DNA of 64,000 nucleotides from Methylopila sp. M107. Lineage in GTDB: Bacteria; Pseudomonadota; Alphaproteobacteria; Rhizobiales; Methylopilaceae. Shown here piece after piece: positions 2,298 to 45,751 of this stretch (position 1 is its first letter; every line of letters starts with the position of its first letter). The stretch is taken from assembly GCF_000384475.1 (NCBI RefSeq), contig NZ_ARWB01000001.1:2150176-2214175 (forward strand), written 5' to 3'. Position numbers and translations under genes: made by a program. The notes beneath the pieces are model-generated. The model had not been told where the DNA came from, did not search any database, and worked only from the letters and a program-made list of their open reading frames with translations.

Positions 2298-3563
<1,266 letters not shown>

Positions 3564-3571
3564 TCTCCGTT

Positions 3572-3696
3572 CTTGTCCCGGCCTTGAGCCGGGACCCAGA
3601 ACCCAGAACCTCATCGACCTCACGAAGAGGCGTCGACGGCGGTGAACGCCATACAAACCCGGCGCGTCTGGGTCCCGGCTCTTCGGCCGGGACAAG
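3572..3696. repeat. Intergenic palindromic repeat, family A (after rho)
   Basis: CTTGTCCCGGCCTTGAGCCG at the left end and CGGCTCTTCGGCCGGGACAAG-type sequence at the right end form two nested inverted repeats around a central unique stretch. The left arm is nearly identical to the repeat at 5192. It may act as the transcript end for rho. Confidence 0.75.
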
Positions 3697-3727
3697 AGGC
3701 GAGGCGCTTGCCCGGACCCACCGCTTC

Positions 3728-4540
3728 ATGCACCCAATGCGCGCCATGACGGGTCGGCGTTTACTCATCGCGGTTCTCGGGACGCTCGTCGTCCTCTGCG
3801 CGGCCGCGCTCCCCGGCCGCGCGCAATTCACCTTCCCGGCCTTCACCAACTACGTCGTCGACCAGGCGAACGTCATTCCGCCAGCGGACGAGCAGGCGCT
3901 GATCGCCAAGCTCAAAGCGTTCCAGGAGCGCTCGGGCAAGCAGCTTGCGGTCGCGACGGTGACGTCGCTCGAGGGAACCTCGGTCGAGGACTACGGCAAC
4001 CGCTTGTTCCGTGAGTGGAAGCTCGGCGACAAGGACCGCAATGACGGGGCGCTGATCCTGATCGCGCCGAACGAGCGCAAGGTGCGCATCGAGGTCGGCT
4101 ACGGGCTCGAGGGCGACCTGACCGACGCGGTATCGCGCCTCATCATCGAGAACGCCATCCTGCCCCGCTTCAAGGCCGGCGACATTCCGGGCGGGATCTC
4201 GCGCGGCGCCGACGACGTCATGGCGGTGTTTTCCGGCCAGGCCGAGGACTACCAGAAGCGCGCCGCGCTCAACGACAAGATCGAGGAACAGACGCCGCTG
4301 ATCGTGACGGTGTTCATGATCTGCTTCTGGATCCTGTTCATCTACATCATGTGGCGGGCGCTCAGGCAGTCGGCGTCAGGCGCAGGAAATTCGCGCCGGC
4401 GGCACGGGCCGTGGATCATCGGCGGCCCGAGCTCCGGAGGGTTCGGCGGCGGCGGCTGGTCCGGGGGCGGCGGAGGAGGCGGTTTCGGCGGCGGGGGCGG
4501 CGGCTCCTCAGGCGGCGGAGGCGCGTCGGGCGGATGGTGA
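3728..4540 (+). CDS. TPM-domain (YgcG-type) membrane protein with glycine-rich tail
   Basis: A 270-residue exported protein: N-terminal signal peptide (LLIAVLGTLVVLCAAALPGRA), a TPM domain (about residues 40-165, with VVDQANVIPPADEQALIAKL and DKDRNDGALILIAPNERKVR), one transmembrane segment near residue 200 (TVFMICFWILFIYIMW) and a C-terminal run of Gly and Ser. TPM proteins sit at the inner membrane facing the periplasm; their role is poorly known (photosystem repair in plants). Met codons at 3728, 3737 and 3746 are all possible starts, none with a clear ribosome site. The next TPM gene overlaps it by 7 bases, suggesting coupled translation. Confidence 0.88.
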   Translation: MHPMRAMTGRRLLIAVLGTLVVLCAAALPGRAQFTFPAFTNYVVDQANVIPPADEQALIAKLKAFQERSGKQLAVATVTSLEGTSVEDYGNRLFREWKLGDKDRNDGALILIAPNERKVRIEVGYGLEGDLTDAVSRLIIENAILPRFKAGDIPGGISRGADDVMAVFSGQAEDYQKRAALNDKIEEQTPLIVTVFMICFWILFIYIMWRALRQSASGAGNSRRRHGPWIIGGPSSGGFGGGGWSGGGGGGGFGGGGGGSSGGGGASGGW

Positions 4541-5190
4541 GAAACGCTGACGGATCGAGCCTCAGGCCCGGCTGCCACATCCTCTCGGAGGAGGACCGCG
4601 CGCGGATCGCCGGCGCCATCGGCCAGGCCGAGGCCGCGACCGCGGGCGAGATCGTCGTGGTGATCGAGACCGACCCTTGCGAGGAGACCGACGCCACGAT
4701 CGCGTTGGTCGCGGCGGGGTTCATCGCGATCTTCTCGGCCGGGCCGCTGTTCTACACGAGCCTCGCGCCACACTGGATCGTGGTCATCCAGGCGGCGGTC
4801 TTCGCCGGTCTGGCGGCGCTCGCAGCCTCCTCGCGTGTCCGCCGCGCGCTGAGGATCGACCGGCTGCCGTCGCGCGCGGCGCATGACGCGGCGCTCCGCA
4901 CGTTCGAAGAGCTGAAGCTCGAGCGCACCCGCGAACGCACCGCCGTGTTGATCCATGTCGCGGTCGCGGACCGCCACGTCGAGGTGATCGCCGACGAGGG
5001 CGTGCACGAGGCGGTCGCGCCTGAGAGCTGGCGCGACGCCGTCCGCGACATCGTTTCGGCCGCCGGTCAGGACCGCCTGGTCGACGGAATCGTCGCCGCG
5101 GTCGGGCGATGCGGCGCGGCGCTCGCGGACGTCCTGCCGCCGGAGCCTGGACTCGGCGACGAACTCCCAAACGAGCCGGTTATCCGCTGA
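4534..5190 (+). CDS. Second TPM-domain membrane protein
   Basis: A 218-residue protein whose ATG overlaps the stop region of the preceding TPM gene. A TPM-like start (ILSEEDRARIAGAIGQAEAATAGEIVVVIE) is followed by two hydrophobic segments (about residues 55-75 and 80-100) and a second globular part with TAVLIHVAVADRHVEVIADEGVHE. It lacks a signal peptide and glycine tail, as is usual for the second member of such TPM pairs. In many relatives the pair sits in an operon with lemA; here a lemA gene lies 38 kb away. Confidence 0.82.
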   Translation: MVRNADGSSLRPGCHILSEEDRARIAGAIGQAEAATAGEIVVVIETDPCEETDATIALVAAGFIAIFSAGPLFYTSLAPHWIVVIQAAVFAGLAALAASSRVRRALRIDRLPSRAAHDAALRTFEELKLERTRERTAVLIHVAVADRHVEVIADEGVHEAVAPESWRDAVRDIVSAAGQDRLVDGIVAAVGRCGAALADVLPPEPGLGDELPNEPVIR

Positions 5191-43294: not shown

Positions 43295-43918
43295 TCAGAA
43301 CGTGACCTTCGGCGGCGCCTGATTCTCCTGCGCGCTCTCGAAGGTCGCGAGCGGCTTGGCCTCGGGATAGAACCAGGAGGCGATCCAGCGGCCCGGAATG
43401 GTGCGCAGCTCGGTATTGTAGGCCTGGACCGCGCCGATGTAGTCGCGCCGCGCCACCGCGATGCGGTTCTCGGTGCCCTCGAGCTGGGACTGCAGCGCGA
43501 GGAAGTTCGCGTTCGACTTCAGGTCCGGATAGTTTTCGGACACCGCGAGCAGGCGCCCGAGCGCGCCCGAAAGCTGCTGCTGCGCCTCCTGGAACTTCTT
43601 CACCGCCTCCGGGTCGGTGAGTTTCGAGGCGTCGATCGTGACCTTGGTGGCGTTGGCGCGCGCCTCGACGACTTCGGTCAGCACCTTCTCCTCCTGCCGG
43701 GCGAAGCCCTTCACGGTCTCGACGAGGTTCGGGATCAGGTCGGCGCGACGCTGATATTGGTTCTGAACCTCCGACCAGCGCGCTTTGGCGGCTTCCTCGA
43801 GCGTCGGGACGCGGTTGATCGCGCCGCAACCGGCGAGCGAAAGCGTCGCGACGAGCAGCGCGCCGAGCGCAAGAAGCCGGCGGAACGGCGCGGAAAGAGC
43901 CAAGGTCATGAAACGCAT
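43295..43918 (-). CDS. lemA: LemA family lipoprotein
   Basis: A 207-residue protein with a lipobox signal (LLALGALLVATLSLAGC), then the LemA helical domain: VQNQYQRRADLIPNLVETVK, a conserved coiled coil (VVEARANATKVTIDASKL), AVSENYPDLKSNANFLALQ and ENRIAVARRDYIGAVQAYN. The C-terminus WFYPEAKPLATFE is typical. Met codons at 43918 and 43909 are both possible. Its usual operon partners, TPM-domain proteins, are at the left end of the window. Confidence 0.93.
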   Translation of the reverse strand: MRFMTLALSAPFRRLLALGALLVATLSLAGCGAINRVPTLEEAAKARWSEVQNQYQRRADLIPNLVETVKGFARQEEKVLTEVVEARANATKVTIDASKLTDPEAVKKFQEAQQQLSGALGRLLAVSENYPDLKSNANFLALQSQLEGTENRIAVARRDYIGAVQAYNTELRTIPGRWIASWFYPEAKPLATFESAQENQAPPKVTF

Positions 43919-44008
43919 CCCCGTAACGGGCGCCGGGGCGCCCCAAGTCCGCTCAAGGGTCGATCGCTCGGGCCGATTGTCAAGCGGCTAGCGCCCGGTC
44001 GGACCGGT

Positions 44009-44023
44009 GAACCGTCCATGAAC
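44009..44023 (+). promoter_or_regulatory. SOS (LexA)-type box upstream of small RNA 1
   Basis: GAAC-CGTCCAT-GAAC is an exact alphaproteobacterial LexA operator (GAAC-N7-GAAC, equal to GTTC-N7-GTTC on the other strand). It sits about 45 bases before the proposed -10 element. An identical arrangement occurs 200 bases downstream. Binding is inference. Confidence 0.5.
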
Positions 44024-44062
44024 GCCGCGGCCATGATGCGTTCAGCGAGCCGTCGCTAGGGT

Positions 44063-44178
44063 CGGTCCTGTTCGAGGGACAAGTCCCCGCCCGAAAGGCG
44101 CCGGTTCGGATTCCCGCCCCTCTCCGCCCCGGATCCTCGAACGCCGCCCGGCCATTGGGAAATGGCCGGGCGTTTTCG
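44063..44178 (+). ncRNA. Putative small RNA 1 of a tandem pair, with intrinsic terminator
   Basis: No ORF covers this segment. A -10-like GCTAGGGT stands at 44055-44062. The body contains TTCGAGG (44071) pairing with CCTCGAA (44135), a hairpin CGCCCGAAAGGCG, and an unpaired C-rich stretch GATTCCCGCCCCTCTCCGC that could contact Shine-Dalgarno regions. It ends in a perfect 12-bp terminator stem (44145-44156 with 44161-44172) followed by TTTT. A second copy starts exactly 200 bases later. The pair recalls tandem rhizobial regulators such as AbcR1/2, but family membership is not shown. Confidence 0.65.
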
Positions 44179-44208
44179 TGTTCAGGCCCTGGCAGGGCCA
44201 TTTCCGGT

Positions 44209-44223
44209 GAACCGGAAATGAAC
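44209..44223 (+). promoter_or_regulatory. SOS (LexA)-type box upstream of small RNA 2
   Basis: GAAC-CGGAAAT-GAAC keeps the exact GAAC-N7-GAAC form although three of the seven spacer bases differ from the first copy. It also lies in a perfect hairpin (CATTTCCGG-TGAA-CCGGAAATG), so another regulator is conceivable. Confidence 0.5.
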
Positions 44224-44262
44224 CGCGCTGCCATCCGTCGTTCAGGGCGGGGCCGCTAACGT

Positions 44263-44378
44263 CCCCCCAACTTCGAGGCTTCATCCCCCGCCCGAAAGGC
44301 GCCGGCTCGGATTCCCGCCCCTCTCCGCTCCGGAGACCTCGAATTTCGCCCGGCCGCTGGGGAGCGGCCGGGCGAGTT
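44263..44378 (+). ncRNA. Putative small RNA 2 of a tandem pair, with intrinsic terminator
   Basis: A paralogue of the preceding small RNA. The core CCCGCCCGAAAGGCGCCGG and GGATTCCCGCCCCTCTCCGC are conserved, as are the distant pairing arms TTCGAGG (44272) and CCTCGAA (44337). The -10-like GCTAACGT is at 44255-44262. The terminator stem (44347-44358 with 44363-44374) is perfect but its T tract is weaker (AGTTCGTT). Base changes between the copies in the terminator are compensatory (CCATT/AATGG versus CCGCT/AGCGG), which supports a real RNA structure. Confidence 0.65.
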
Positions 44379-44396
44379 CGTTGGGTTCCAACGAAC
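44376..44396. terminator. 9-bp inverted repeat at the end of the AT-rich island
   Basis: GTTCGTTGG-GTT-CCAACGAAC pairs perfectly. It lies directly between small RNA 2 and the stop of the leftward membrane-protein gene, so it could end either transcript. No clear T run follows on the left. Confidence 0.45.
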
Positions 44397-44403
44397 AGTC
44401 CAA

Positions 44404-45525
44404 CTATCGTGACCCGTCTCCAAACTGCGTCTTAGATGACGCCTGAGGCGTATCTCCTGAATTTACTTTCCATACGGAAACAATCGGCCCAGCAAGTGGT
44501 ATCAAAACACTAAGAACACTCAAGCTAAATTTCTTCGTGTACGCTCTGTCGGACATGTCCCGATATAGAGCATCATACTTTGTCAACTGAGACAATTCTT
44601 TATCCGTCAGGCTGGTAATGCGCCTAGAATAGTTAAGATTTTCATTTTCTATTTCGATTAGTAAACTCTCGACCGACCGGCGTTTGGCCTCATCGAGATA
44701 TCTCTGATTTTCCAAGAAAGCCGCTGCACCGACCACAAGTGAGAAGAAGCTTGCTGTAGGCACAACGAACAGAACAAACGATCTCAGTTCATAGAATAAA
44801 AATGGGATAGTTATTATTGAAATTGCAATTCCAAGCCAGAAAAGCAAAAAGCACATCCCAATATCAGACATTCTGATTAATATAGATTTGTTCTTATCCA
44901 TAACATTTATAATCTGAGCCTGATTGTTTCGGATTTCACGAGAGAATATTGTATAGAATAGGGAGACGTAAGTCGCTCTTGCCGCAAGGTAGTAAAGAAA
45001 ATAGAATCCAACGCTCCAGAAAAATATCTGCGTATATGATGCATGCAAGTCACGGGCTATCGCGACGACTGAGCCAAGCCAAGCGAGCCCCGCGCTGAAG
45101 AGGGCTACCATCGAAACGCGGCGGGCGGGATAGCGGTCTGCCAGCGTTGTGCTGATTCTCTCCATCGAGACTGTGTTCAGTCTTGGAAGTATTGCGCTCT
45201 CGATGATTGAAAGAACTTTATTTGAGCATATGCGCGCTGTTGTTGCTGCAAACATAATGTAAGCGGCGGCCCACGCAGAAAGTTTAAGAATTTGAAGATT
45301 TGGATCTTTTACAAAGAAATAAAGAAATACACAGAAAATAAGGAAATAAACACTTCCATCGAGTACCCCAGAAACGTACGGGTTCTCAATTTTTATGTTG
45401 AATTTCAGGAACTCGGGCCATGCTCCGAGAGAGTCGCCTAAAAGTCGATCAACTTGTATTCGTAGCTGCTCTGTGACCGCGTGGGACGAATGTTCGTCTA
45501 TACTTCGATCAGTGTTCTTGATCAT
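44404..45525 (-). CDS. AT-rich multi-pass membrane protein, function unknown
   Basis: A protein of about 373 residues in DNA far richer in A+T than its surroundings, with frequent AAA, ATA and TTA codons, so probably acquired by transfer. It has six or seven transmembrane segments: VYFLIFCVFLYFFVKD, AAYIMFAATTA, VALFSAGLAWLGSVVAIA, FFWSVGFYFLYYLAARA, MCFLLFWLGIAISIITIPF and FVLFVVPTASFFSLVVGAAA. A charged helical cytosolic stretch (LDEAKRRSVESLLIEIENEN) precedes a last hydrophobic segment. I recognise no family. The ATG at 45525 overlaps the upstream small gene by 17 bases; starts at 45537 or 45555 are possible. Confidence 0.6.
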   Translation of the reverse strand: MIKNTDRSIDEHSSHAVTEQLRIQVDRLLGDSLGAWPEFLKFNIKIENPYVSGVLDGSVYFLIFCVFLYFFVKDPNLQILKLSAWAAAYIMFAATTARICSNKVLSIIESAILPRLNTVSMERISTTLADRYPARRVSMVALFSAGLAWLGSVVAIARDLHASYTQIFFWSVGFYFLYYLAARATYVSLFYTIFSREIRNNQAQIINVMDKNKSILIRMSDIGMCFLLFWLGIAISIITIPFLFYELRSFVLFVVPTASFFSLVVGAAAFLENQRYLDEAKRRSVESLLIEIENENLNYSRRITSLTDKELSQLTKYDALYRDMSDRAYTKKFSLSVLSVLIPLAGPIVSVWKVNSGDTPQASSKTQFGDGSR

Positions 45526-45751
45526 TTGTAGGGTCATCCCGCTTCGGTGGGACATAAATATTCGCGAGTATCAGAAGCTTTCTGTCGTCTCCCTTCTCAT
45601 AGGAAACGAGAGTGTCCGGCGCTAATTTGAACCGTTCAATGAGTTCCACTATATGGCTTGCATGATCGGGAGTCAGGTTTTGAGAAATGCGTTGACGTCG
45701 GAGGGCTTTGCGGCCCTCACCGACCATGCGCGCCTGCCGTCGCGGTTCCAT
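45509..45751 (-). CDS. Small hypothetical protein paired with the AT-rich membrane protein
   Basis: An 80-residue protein: basic N-terminus (MEPRRQARMVGEGRKALRRQ) and then a mixed alpha/beta part (HASHIVELIERFKLAPDTLV, KLLILANIYVPPKRDD). Its last codons overlap the start of the membrane-protein gene, indicating coupled expression. Only the second half has the AT-rich codon use of the island, so the true start could be internal (Met at 45727). No family recognised, no signal peptide, so probably cytosolic. Confidence 0.45.
   Translation of the reverse strand: MEPRRQARMVGEGRKALRRQRISQNLTPDHASHIVELIERFKLAPDTLVSYEKGDDRKLLILANIYVPPKRDDPTNDQEH

Follow-up and report, generated by a model that had tools for sequence, protein, structure and literature searches.

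The window analysed here, a stretch of 64,000 nt from a source genome assembled as a single contig of 4.45 Mb, carries two paralogous candidate small-RNA genes in tandem whose boxes lie exactly 200 bp apart, and we consider it fairly probable that the pair represents sibling small RNAs switched on alongside an envelope regulon by a putative activator. Comparative sequence evidence strongly supports the reading of the pair as RNAs, and what emerges as a well-supported proposal is a structured small-RNA family, new but of a familiar kind, found so far in one genus. Genus is used here for the grouping of the search tool, which takes in Methylopila and Hansschlegelia records together with the window's genome; both genera are placed in the Methylopilaceae (Hyphomicrobiales). 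The two elements (44008-44181 and 44208-44383) align with each other end to end, with their longest identical runs in the RNA core, and are flanked by a LemA-family gene (43298-43918, minus strand) and by an ORF (44407-45555, minus strand) that has no Pfam match and looks by eye like a membrane protein. In the predicted fold, a stem (P1) encloses a small hairpin (P2) and a second hairpin (P3) with a near-invariant C-rich loop, and a terminator follows. The parts of the pair are the following.

44008..44044, plus strand: operator of copy 1, TGAAC-N6-TGAAC-N16-GTTCA (37 bp), no mismatches, including GAAC-N7-GAAC at 44009-44023
44057..44062, plus strand: -10-like element of copy 1, TAGGGT, 12 bp past the operator
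44062..44181, plus strand: candidate small RNA copy 1, covariance-model match (106.7 bits, E 1.9e-19 for the set searched), itself among the model-building sequences
44071..44077, plus strand: P1 5' arm of copy 1, TTCGAGG, partner CCTCGAA at 44135-44141
44113..44126, plus strand: C-rich core of copy 1, CCCGCCCCTCTCCG, mostly P3 hairpin loop, the least variable part of the family
44145..44176, plus strand: predicted intrinsic terminator of copy 1, stem (11 bp, with compensatory changes) and T run
44208..44244, plus strand: operator of copy 2, TGAAC-N6-TGAAC-N16-GTTCA, no mismatches, including GAAC-N7-GAAC at 44209-44223
44257..44262, plus strand: -10-like element of copy 2, TAACGT, 12 bp past the operator
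44263..44383, plus strand: candidate small RNA copy 2, covariance-model match (105.6 bits, E 3.2e-19), itself among the model-building sequences
44272..44278, plus strand: P1 5' arm of copy 2, TTCGAGG, partner CCTCGAA at 44337-44343
44314..44327, plus strand: C-rich core of copy 2, mostly P3 hairpin loop
44347..44374, plus strand: predicted intrinsic terminator stem of copy 2, with compensatory changes relative to copy 1

Transcription would start near 44068-44070 in copy 1 and near 44268-44270 in copy 2, and we infer an RNA of about 110 nt. A preliminary description of this DNA had already recognised two tandem paralogous small-RNA genes, each with an exact GAAC-N7-GAAC, a -10-like element at equal offset and long-range TTCGAGG/CCTCGAA arms. 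All of these are present in the sequence, and the RNA reading is now backed by a covariance model in relatives. Its overall interpretation is partly supported: the small-RNA genes and the conserved box are upheld, the assignment of that box to LexA is not.

Taken alone, the short box is weak evidence. GAAC-N7-GAAC occurs five times in the window where 2.08 occurrences are expected, a number reached in 5 of 100 shuffles, and 133 times in the whole genome as compared with 96 for the reversed control. The longer element that contains it is hard to put down to chance. TGAAC-N6-TGAAC-N16-GTTCA is found without mismatch twice in the window and not once as the reversed control and, when up to two mismatches are allowed, 150 times in 12 genus genomes versus twice for the control, counts that cover both strands and include dyad sites on each strand.

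Support for an RNA comes from the relatives of the pair. Forty candidates carrying the core pattern were collected from the own and related genomes, and the alignment was made from 33 of them after dropping seven in which neither the operator nor the remainder of the element was present (L019, L104, L105, L113, L126, L129 and L131). Unaided, RNAalifold recovered most of P3 and the terminator from this alignment, with changes on both sides of the pair in some copy for 12 of 18 pairs, and did not recover P1 and P2. Complementary runs of 7 bp or longer link the two P1 arm regions in 25 of the 33 copies, as compared with 321 of 1056 swapped combinations, although a few copies have their longest run elsewhere than at P1. 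When the four helices were imposed on the MAFFT alignment, 19 of the 31 pairs had both-sided changes (7/9 in P1, 0/4 in P2, 5/7 in P3 and 7/11 in the terminator), and on all five measures applied the real alignment exceeded every one of 500 shuffles. Paired cells amounted to 82.7% with the structure in place and to 47.7% at best when it was slid by 1-3 columns; the imposed structure was drawn from the same sequences, which favours it in this control. Since none of its four pairs changes on both sides in the MAFFT alignment, P2 rests on conservation more than on covariation. Fitting 53 matches to the model, three of them weak, gives an alignment biased in the model's favour; there, 29 of 31 pairs show both-sided change, including two of the four in P2. 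On these alignments P1, P3 and the terminator appear clearly to covary, and P2 weakly. Between the two copies of the window, the terminator stems differ in a compensatory way (CCAT/ATGG versus CCGC/GCGG), as the preliminary description had noted together with the conserved stems and C-rich core that the 33-copy alignment bears out. The single-copy folds are unremarkable for their composition (z -1.20 for copy 1 and -1.96 for copy 2); the evidence for structure is comparative. The least variable feature of the fold is the near-invariant CCCGCCCCUCUC, which is mostly unpaired in P3.

In a search of 397 genomes, a covariance model built from the family alignment (R1) identifies 50 strong copies with E values no higher than 5.2e-9; all 13 genus genomes have them, at 2-9 copies per genome. 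The source genome has four of these strong copies, the window pair, L003 and L066. A covariance analysis in relatives had been set beforehand as a test of the preliminary description, and box and stems are indeed kept in the genus genomes. Beyond the strong copies, R1 has a weak match in the genus genome G002 (E 3.8e-4) and a single marginal match in each of seven non-genus genomes among the 397 searched (E 0.0015-0.0099). Three of these seven loci were retrieved (L191-L193), of which two were matched again locally with E values up to 1e-4, and neither of these two has the operator. A more sensitive search within the 18 Methylopilaceae genomes gave 13 positive genomes, all of the genus, with a few extra weak matches in genus genomes and none in the five genomes of two other genera. 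The combination of exact operator and core pattern occurs in 15 stretches of named genomes, assigned to Methylopila, Hansschlegelia, a Chelatococcus-labelled genome and Amycolatopsis; the three Amycolatopsis matches look like chance, having neither the third element nor the fold. A search of the window against Rfam returned no match at gathering score, motif strings gave no match in the open-access literature searched, and the matches listed there included none on small RNAs of Methylopila or Hansschlegelia.

The operator precedes 41 of the 50 strong copies, which fall into two kinds. In 29 copies (kind A) it stands directly before the RNA, 53-57 nt ahead of the model start; in the other 12 (kind B) it lies upstream of the position of a small ORF, 171-242 nt from the model start. 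The pattern allowed up to four mismatches, of which one of the 41 sites has three and five have two. Seven of the nine copies without a box of their own have none within four mismatches in 330 nt, and the other two are second tandem copies; for L023, the second copy was scored as having a site of its own, with two mismatches. Other tandem pairs occur at L008 (G001) and L178 (G009), where the second family member has no operator of its own. One box that had first been found by pattern (G008:4978143) was later seen to lie ahead of a further, weaker copy (E 4.6e-8).

Kind A comprises the window pair and L003 in the source genome, and kind B L066 only. Downstream of the operator, nine of the 12 kind B copies have a small ORF of 55-62 codons with a hydrophobic stretch, as judged by eye; no such ORF was found in the remaining three. 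Eight of the nine ORF-bearing copies share the position of the stop codon, which falls 17 nt inside the RNA model, and there the last codons, mostly encoding PLGR or PLAR, form the P1 5' arm. In L066, which neighbours a gene that we take to be coaD, the stop codon lies at position 30, and the product of its small ORF has no Pfam match. Multiple copies restricted to one genus could also be expected of a dispersed repeat, mobile or REP-like and devoid of any regulatory RNA function. This explanation is extremely improbable in view of the compensatory change in P1, P3 and the terminator, the fixed offset of the -10-like element, and the similar small ORF ahead of nine of the 12 kind B copies.

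The spacing between operator and promoter is narrowly defined. Of the 29 direct copies, 21 have TAnnnT downstream of the operator at a distance of exactly 12 bp, and of the 12 kind B copies seven have it at exactly 11 bp; at any other offset from 0 to 29 it occurs in at most one site, as counted on the RNA copies only and not on protein genes. No recognisable -35 element is present in the promoter region, which suggests that an activator supplies the corresponding contact. ECF sigma factors offer a different solution, as their -35 elements often contain AAC: both copies have GAAC-N15-CGTT, in which GAAC would be the -35 and the CGTT of the third element the -10. This arrangement is quite improbable. 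Only 24 of the 41 sites have a C immediately before GTTCA, whereas GTTCA itself, the reverse complement of TGAAC, is near-constant (being, however, part of the collecting pattern); moreover, a sigma factor reading the promoter in this way would leave the first TGAAC without a role and the separate TAnnnT at a fixed downstream distance to be accounted for.

The preliminary description had regarded the boxes as LexA operators and the pair as a DNA-damage-induced small-RNA tandem. GAAC-N7-GAAC is the core of the alphaproteobacterial SOS box, it is exact in both copies, and the source genome encodes LexA. The genome also offers a standard of comparison in nine likely LexA sites, located at lexA, ssb/uvrA, a DNA-polymerase-alpha-type gene, yifB/comM (two sites), an RmuC-like gene and pdeM, with a double box at a further gene (the RmuC-like gene was assigned by eye, with no NCBIfam match for it or for the double-box gene). 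These nine were hand-picked, without recA, from 17 regions among the matches listed of the 133 occurrences, leaving out four sites on repeat stretches (L101, L104, L105 and L109) and six chance-like regions (L107 and L113-L117). The likely LexA sites, mostly GAACA-N6-GAACA, have an A after the first GAAC in seven of nine and after the second in eight of nine, and in none of them is the second GAAC preceded by T. The small-RNA boxes have a T before both GAAC halves and mostly G or C after them; in the 41 sites the second GAAC is preceded by T in 40 and followed by A in three, a contrast that is partly circular as the sites were collected with a pattern containing both Ts and GTTCA. A matrix of LexA flanks and spacer scores the window boxes at -14.5 and -13.5 and the nine LexA sites, each left out in turn, at -0.2 to 12.4 (the lowest value being that of the pdeM site), while the matrix of the family gives the window boxes 7.1 and 6.3 when they are themselves left out. 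In addition, the third element GTTCA and the fixed -10 distance are conserved, and the same operator recurs at genes of non-SOS type, not known to belong to the SOS response. With flanks and spacer so unlike those of the likely LexA sites, the LexA interpretation becomes very improbable; a response to DNA damage may come about by a route other than LexA. The four repeat-stretch sites left out above (near 86.4, 1387.6, 1439.1 and 2390.5 kb) are similar GAACATA-type boxes on an apparent repeated stretch, which suggests an SOS-type box on a repeated element.

The operator is shared with protein genes. Seven distinct sites (up to two mismatches) are present in the source genome, of which four serve the four RNA copies. 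The others lie before a histidine-phosphatase/YcjX operon, from which an Hpt-domain gene diverges, before an S49 peptidase gene, and before a small secreted-looking ORF without Pfam match (secretion was judged by eye throughout). At the first of these, near 580 kb (L065:1928-2302 and 2642-4638), the orphan Hpt-domain gene diverges from the histidine phosphatase/YcjX operon at one near-perfect dyad operator, and a phosphorelay link from the Hpt-domain gene to the regulator is possible. Like genes recur at the operator in the other genus genomes, where Gly/Tyr-rich secreted-looking proteins are encoded opposite the S49 peptidase and one site lies by an HtpG gene (L204). In other genera of the order, operator sites are found by genes for a curlin-repeat protein, an Hsp20 protein and small secreted-looking proteins. 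Among six genomes of other genera, the operator signal is clear in some (10 sites versus 2 for the reversed control in G018, 11 versus 3 in G019, 12 versus 1 in G022) and absent in others (0 versus 2 in G020), with 5 versus 1 in G021 and 7 versus 3 in G023. R1 finds no match at E 0.01 in any of these six genomes (G018-G023), and the occurrence of the operator in genomes without an R1 match suggests that it may predate its use by the RNAs.

In the proposed mechanism, a putative activator would bind the 37-bp operator 11-12 bp before TAnnnT and replace the -35 contact. The 11-bp period of the direct repeat makes an OmpR-type response regulator a candidate for this role. The same activator would act on the S49 peptidase gene, the histidine phosphatase/YcjX operon and the small secreted-looking proteins, and also on the small membrane-protein-like ORF that carries a member of the RNA family at its 3' end. 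The RNAs would pair by their C-rich loop with purine-rich ribosome-binding regions, lowering translation, and would constitute the RNA arm of an envelope-maintenance regulon; this anti-Shine-Dalgarno role is proposed by analogy, since C-rich loops are so described in other Rhizobiales small RNAs. The loop complement GAGGGGCGGG occurs 30 times genome-wide versus 27 times for the reversed control, some of the 30 being the antisense of RNA copies, and no targets are therefore proposed. Near-identical start regions of a 498-codon ORF at L209 and L210 (near 700.5 and 743.0 kb) have GAGGGGCGGG 4 nt before the ATG; a few other ORFs also have it right before the start codon, not beyond the control.

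Taken more broadly, chances seem evenly balanced that the operator, with its two direct TGAAC and inverted GTTCA, marks an undescribed envelope-maintenance regulon of Hyphomicrobiales. In one genus this regulon would have recruited 2-9 sibling small RNAs per genome by two routes, as stand-alone genes and as the 3' end of the mRNA of a small membrane protein whose last codons form the first helix. For Methylopilaceae, the analysis provides a testable small-RNA family and a well-defined operator that marks a set of envelope-type genes. The up to nine strong paralogues, apparently produced in two ways from one signal, also bear on the question of why bacteria multiply sibling small RNAs.

Several known small RNAs resemble the family in part. 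One of them is ar7 of Rhizobiaceae (Smr7C, RF02342), of roughly similar length, with CCCCCGCC and CCCCUCUCCG in the same order and a terminator at the end. The family might be a divergent branch of ar7 with the same targets: both window copies align weakly end to end with the Rfam model (17.1 and 16.0 bits, E 0.37 and 0.68), and the motifs CCCCCGCC and CCCCTCTCCG precede the terminator in the same order in the pair and in ar7. These scores are, however, far under the gathering score of 60, and R1 run over five of the 11 ar7 loci gives a single match up to E 5 (9.4 bits, E 3.3), which lies outside ar7. The Rfam structure consists of three separate hairpins with no enclosing P1, and none of the 11 ar7 loci carries the operator of the family (allowing 3 mismatches, between positions -200 and +60 nt relative to the start). 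Besides, ar7 has one match per genome in 11 of 297 genomes of the order. Such a descent is unlikely, and membership of the pair in ar7 was rejected. In the own genome the two best matches of the ar7 model lie away from the pair. Most of the 11 ar7 loci (L133-L143) have an upstream TGTTAC...TGTAA-like motif and a CCTTGAA stretch.

Rfam includes an AbcR family, and the absence of any Rfam match at gathering score in the window sets the pair apart from it. AbcR1 and AbcR2 are described as tandem similar small RNAs in an alphaproteobacterium (PMC3712013). The Rhizobiales RNAs SmelA075 and SmelA099 are presented as having conserved C-rich loops, described as anti-Shine-Dalgarno, on variable stems (PMC3927594). 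The family studied here differs in that it has one loop, different in sequence (CCCGCCCCUCUC), and in addition an enclosing stem and an operator common to its members. CcsR1-4 of Rhodobacter sphaeroides are reported as oxidative-stress-induced sibling small RNAs from the 3' UTR of the ccaF1 mRNA (PMC8625941). Kind B may resemble this arrangement, in that several siblings would come from 3' UTRs of mRNAs for small proteins: in nine of the 12 kind B copies the RNA is where a similar small ORF ends, which is not so for the window pair, and unlike CcsR1-4 most copies here stand alone with their own promoter-like element. The CcsR motif, CCUCCUCCC, occurs in none of the 53 aligned family matches.

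With regard to regulation, ChvR of Caulobacter, according to its description, is activated by ChvI under acid stress, mitomycin C or minimal medium, and the ChvI motif reported there is TTGC-N3-GCAA (PMC9731502). ChvR, set against the pair by description, would be alike in being a small RNA under an envelope two-component system, and the ChvI motif is unlike the operator found here. The CenR regulon of R. sphaeroides is reported to be marked by TGA-N8-TGA, a direct repeat with a period of 11 bp that in most cases precedes the -35 of envelope genes (PMC9275681). TGAAC-N6-TGAAC fits both this spacing and this period; in contrast, the half-sites listed in that source mostly begin T(G/C)(A/G)C rather than TGAAC, and the portion of it considered here describes no inverted third element (PMC9275681). 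At tolQ, a CenR target elsewhere, neither TGA-N8-TGA nor TGAAC-N6-TGAAC is present on either strand of the 1600 bases that open L236, a stretch made up of upstream flank plus 100 bases of the match; the locus has one TGAAC repeat with two mismatches. CenR may be considered a candidate regulator, which on these sequences fits in repeat spacing only. RSP_0847, a response regulator gene of R. sphaeroides, appears in one paper among the CenR-controlled genes, and a second paper locates SorX, a small RNA from a 3' UTR, on the mRNA of this gene, which connects, independently of the present data, a regulator of the CenR kind with small RNAs. If the proposed mechanism holds, the whole regulon would gain a shared repressive RNA arm, with a logic comparable to that of the enterobacterial sigma-E small RNAs.
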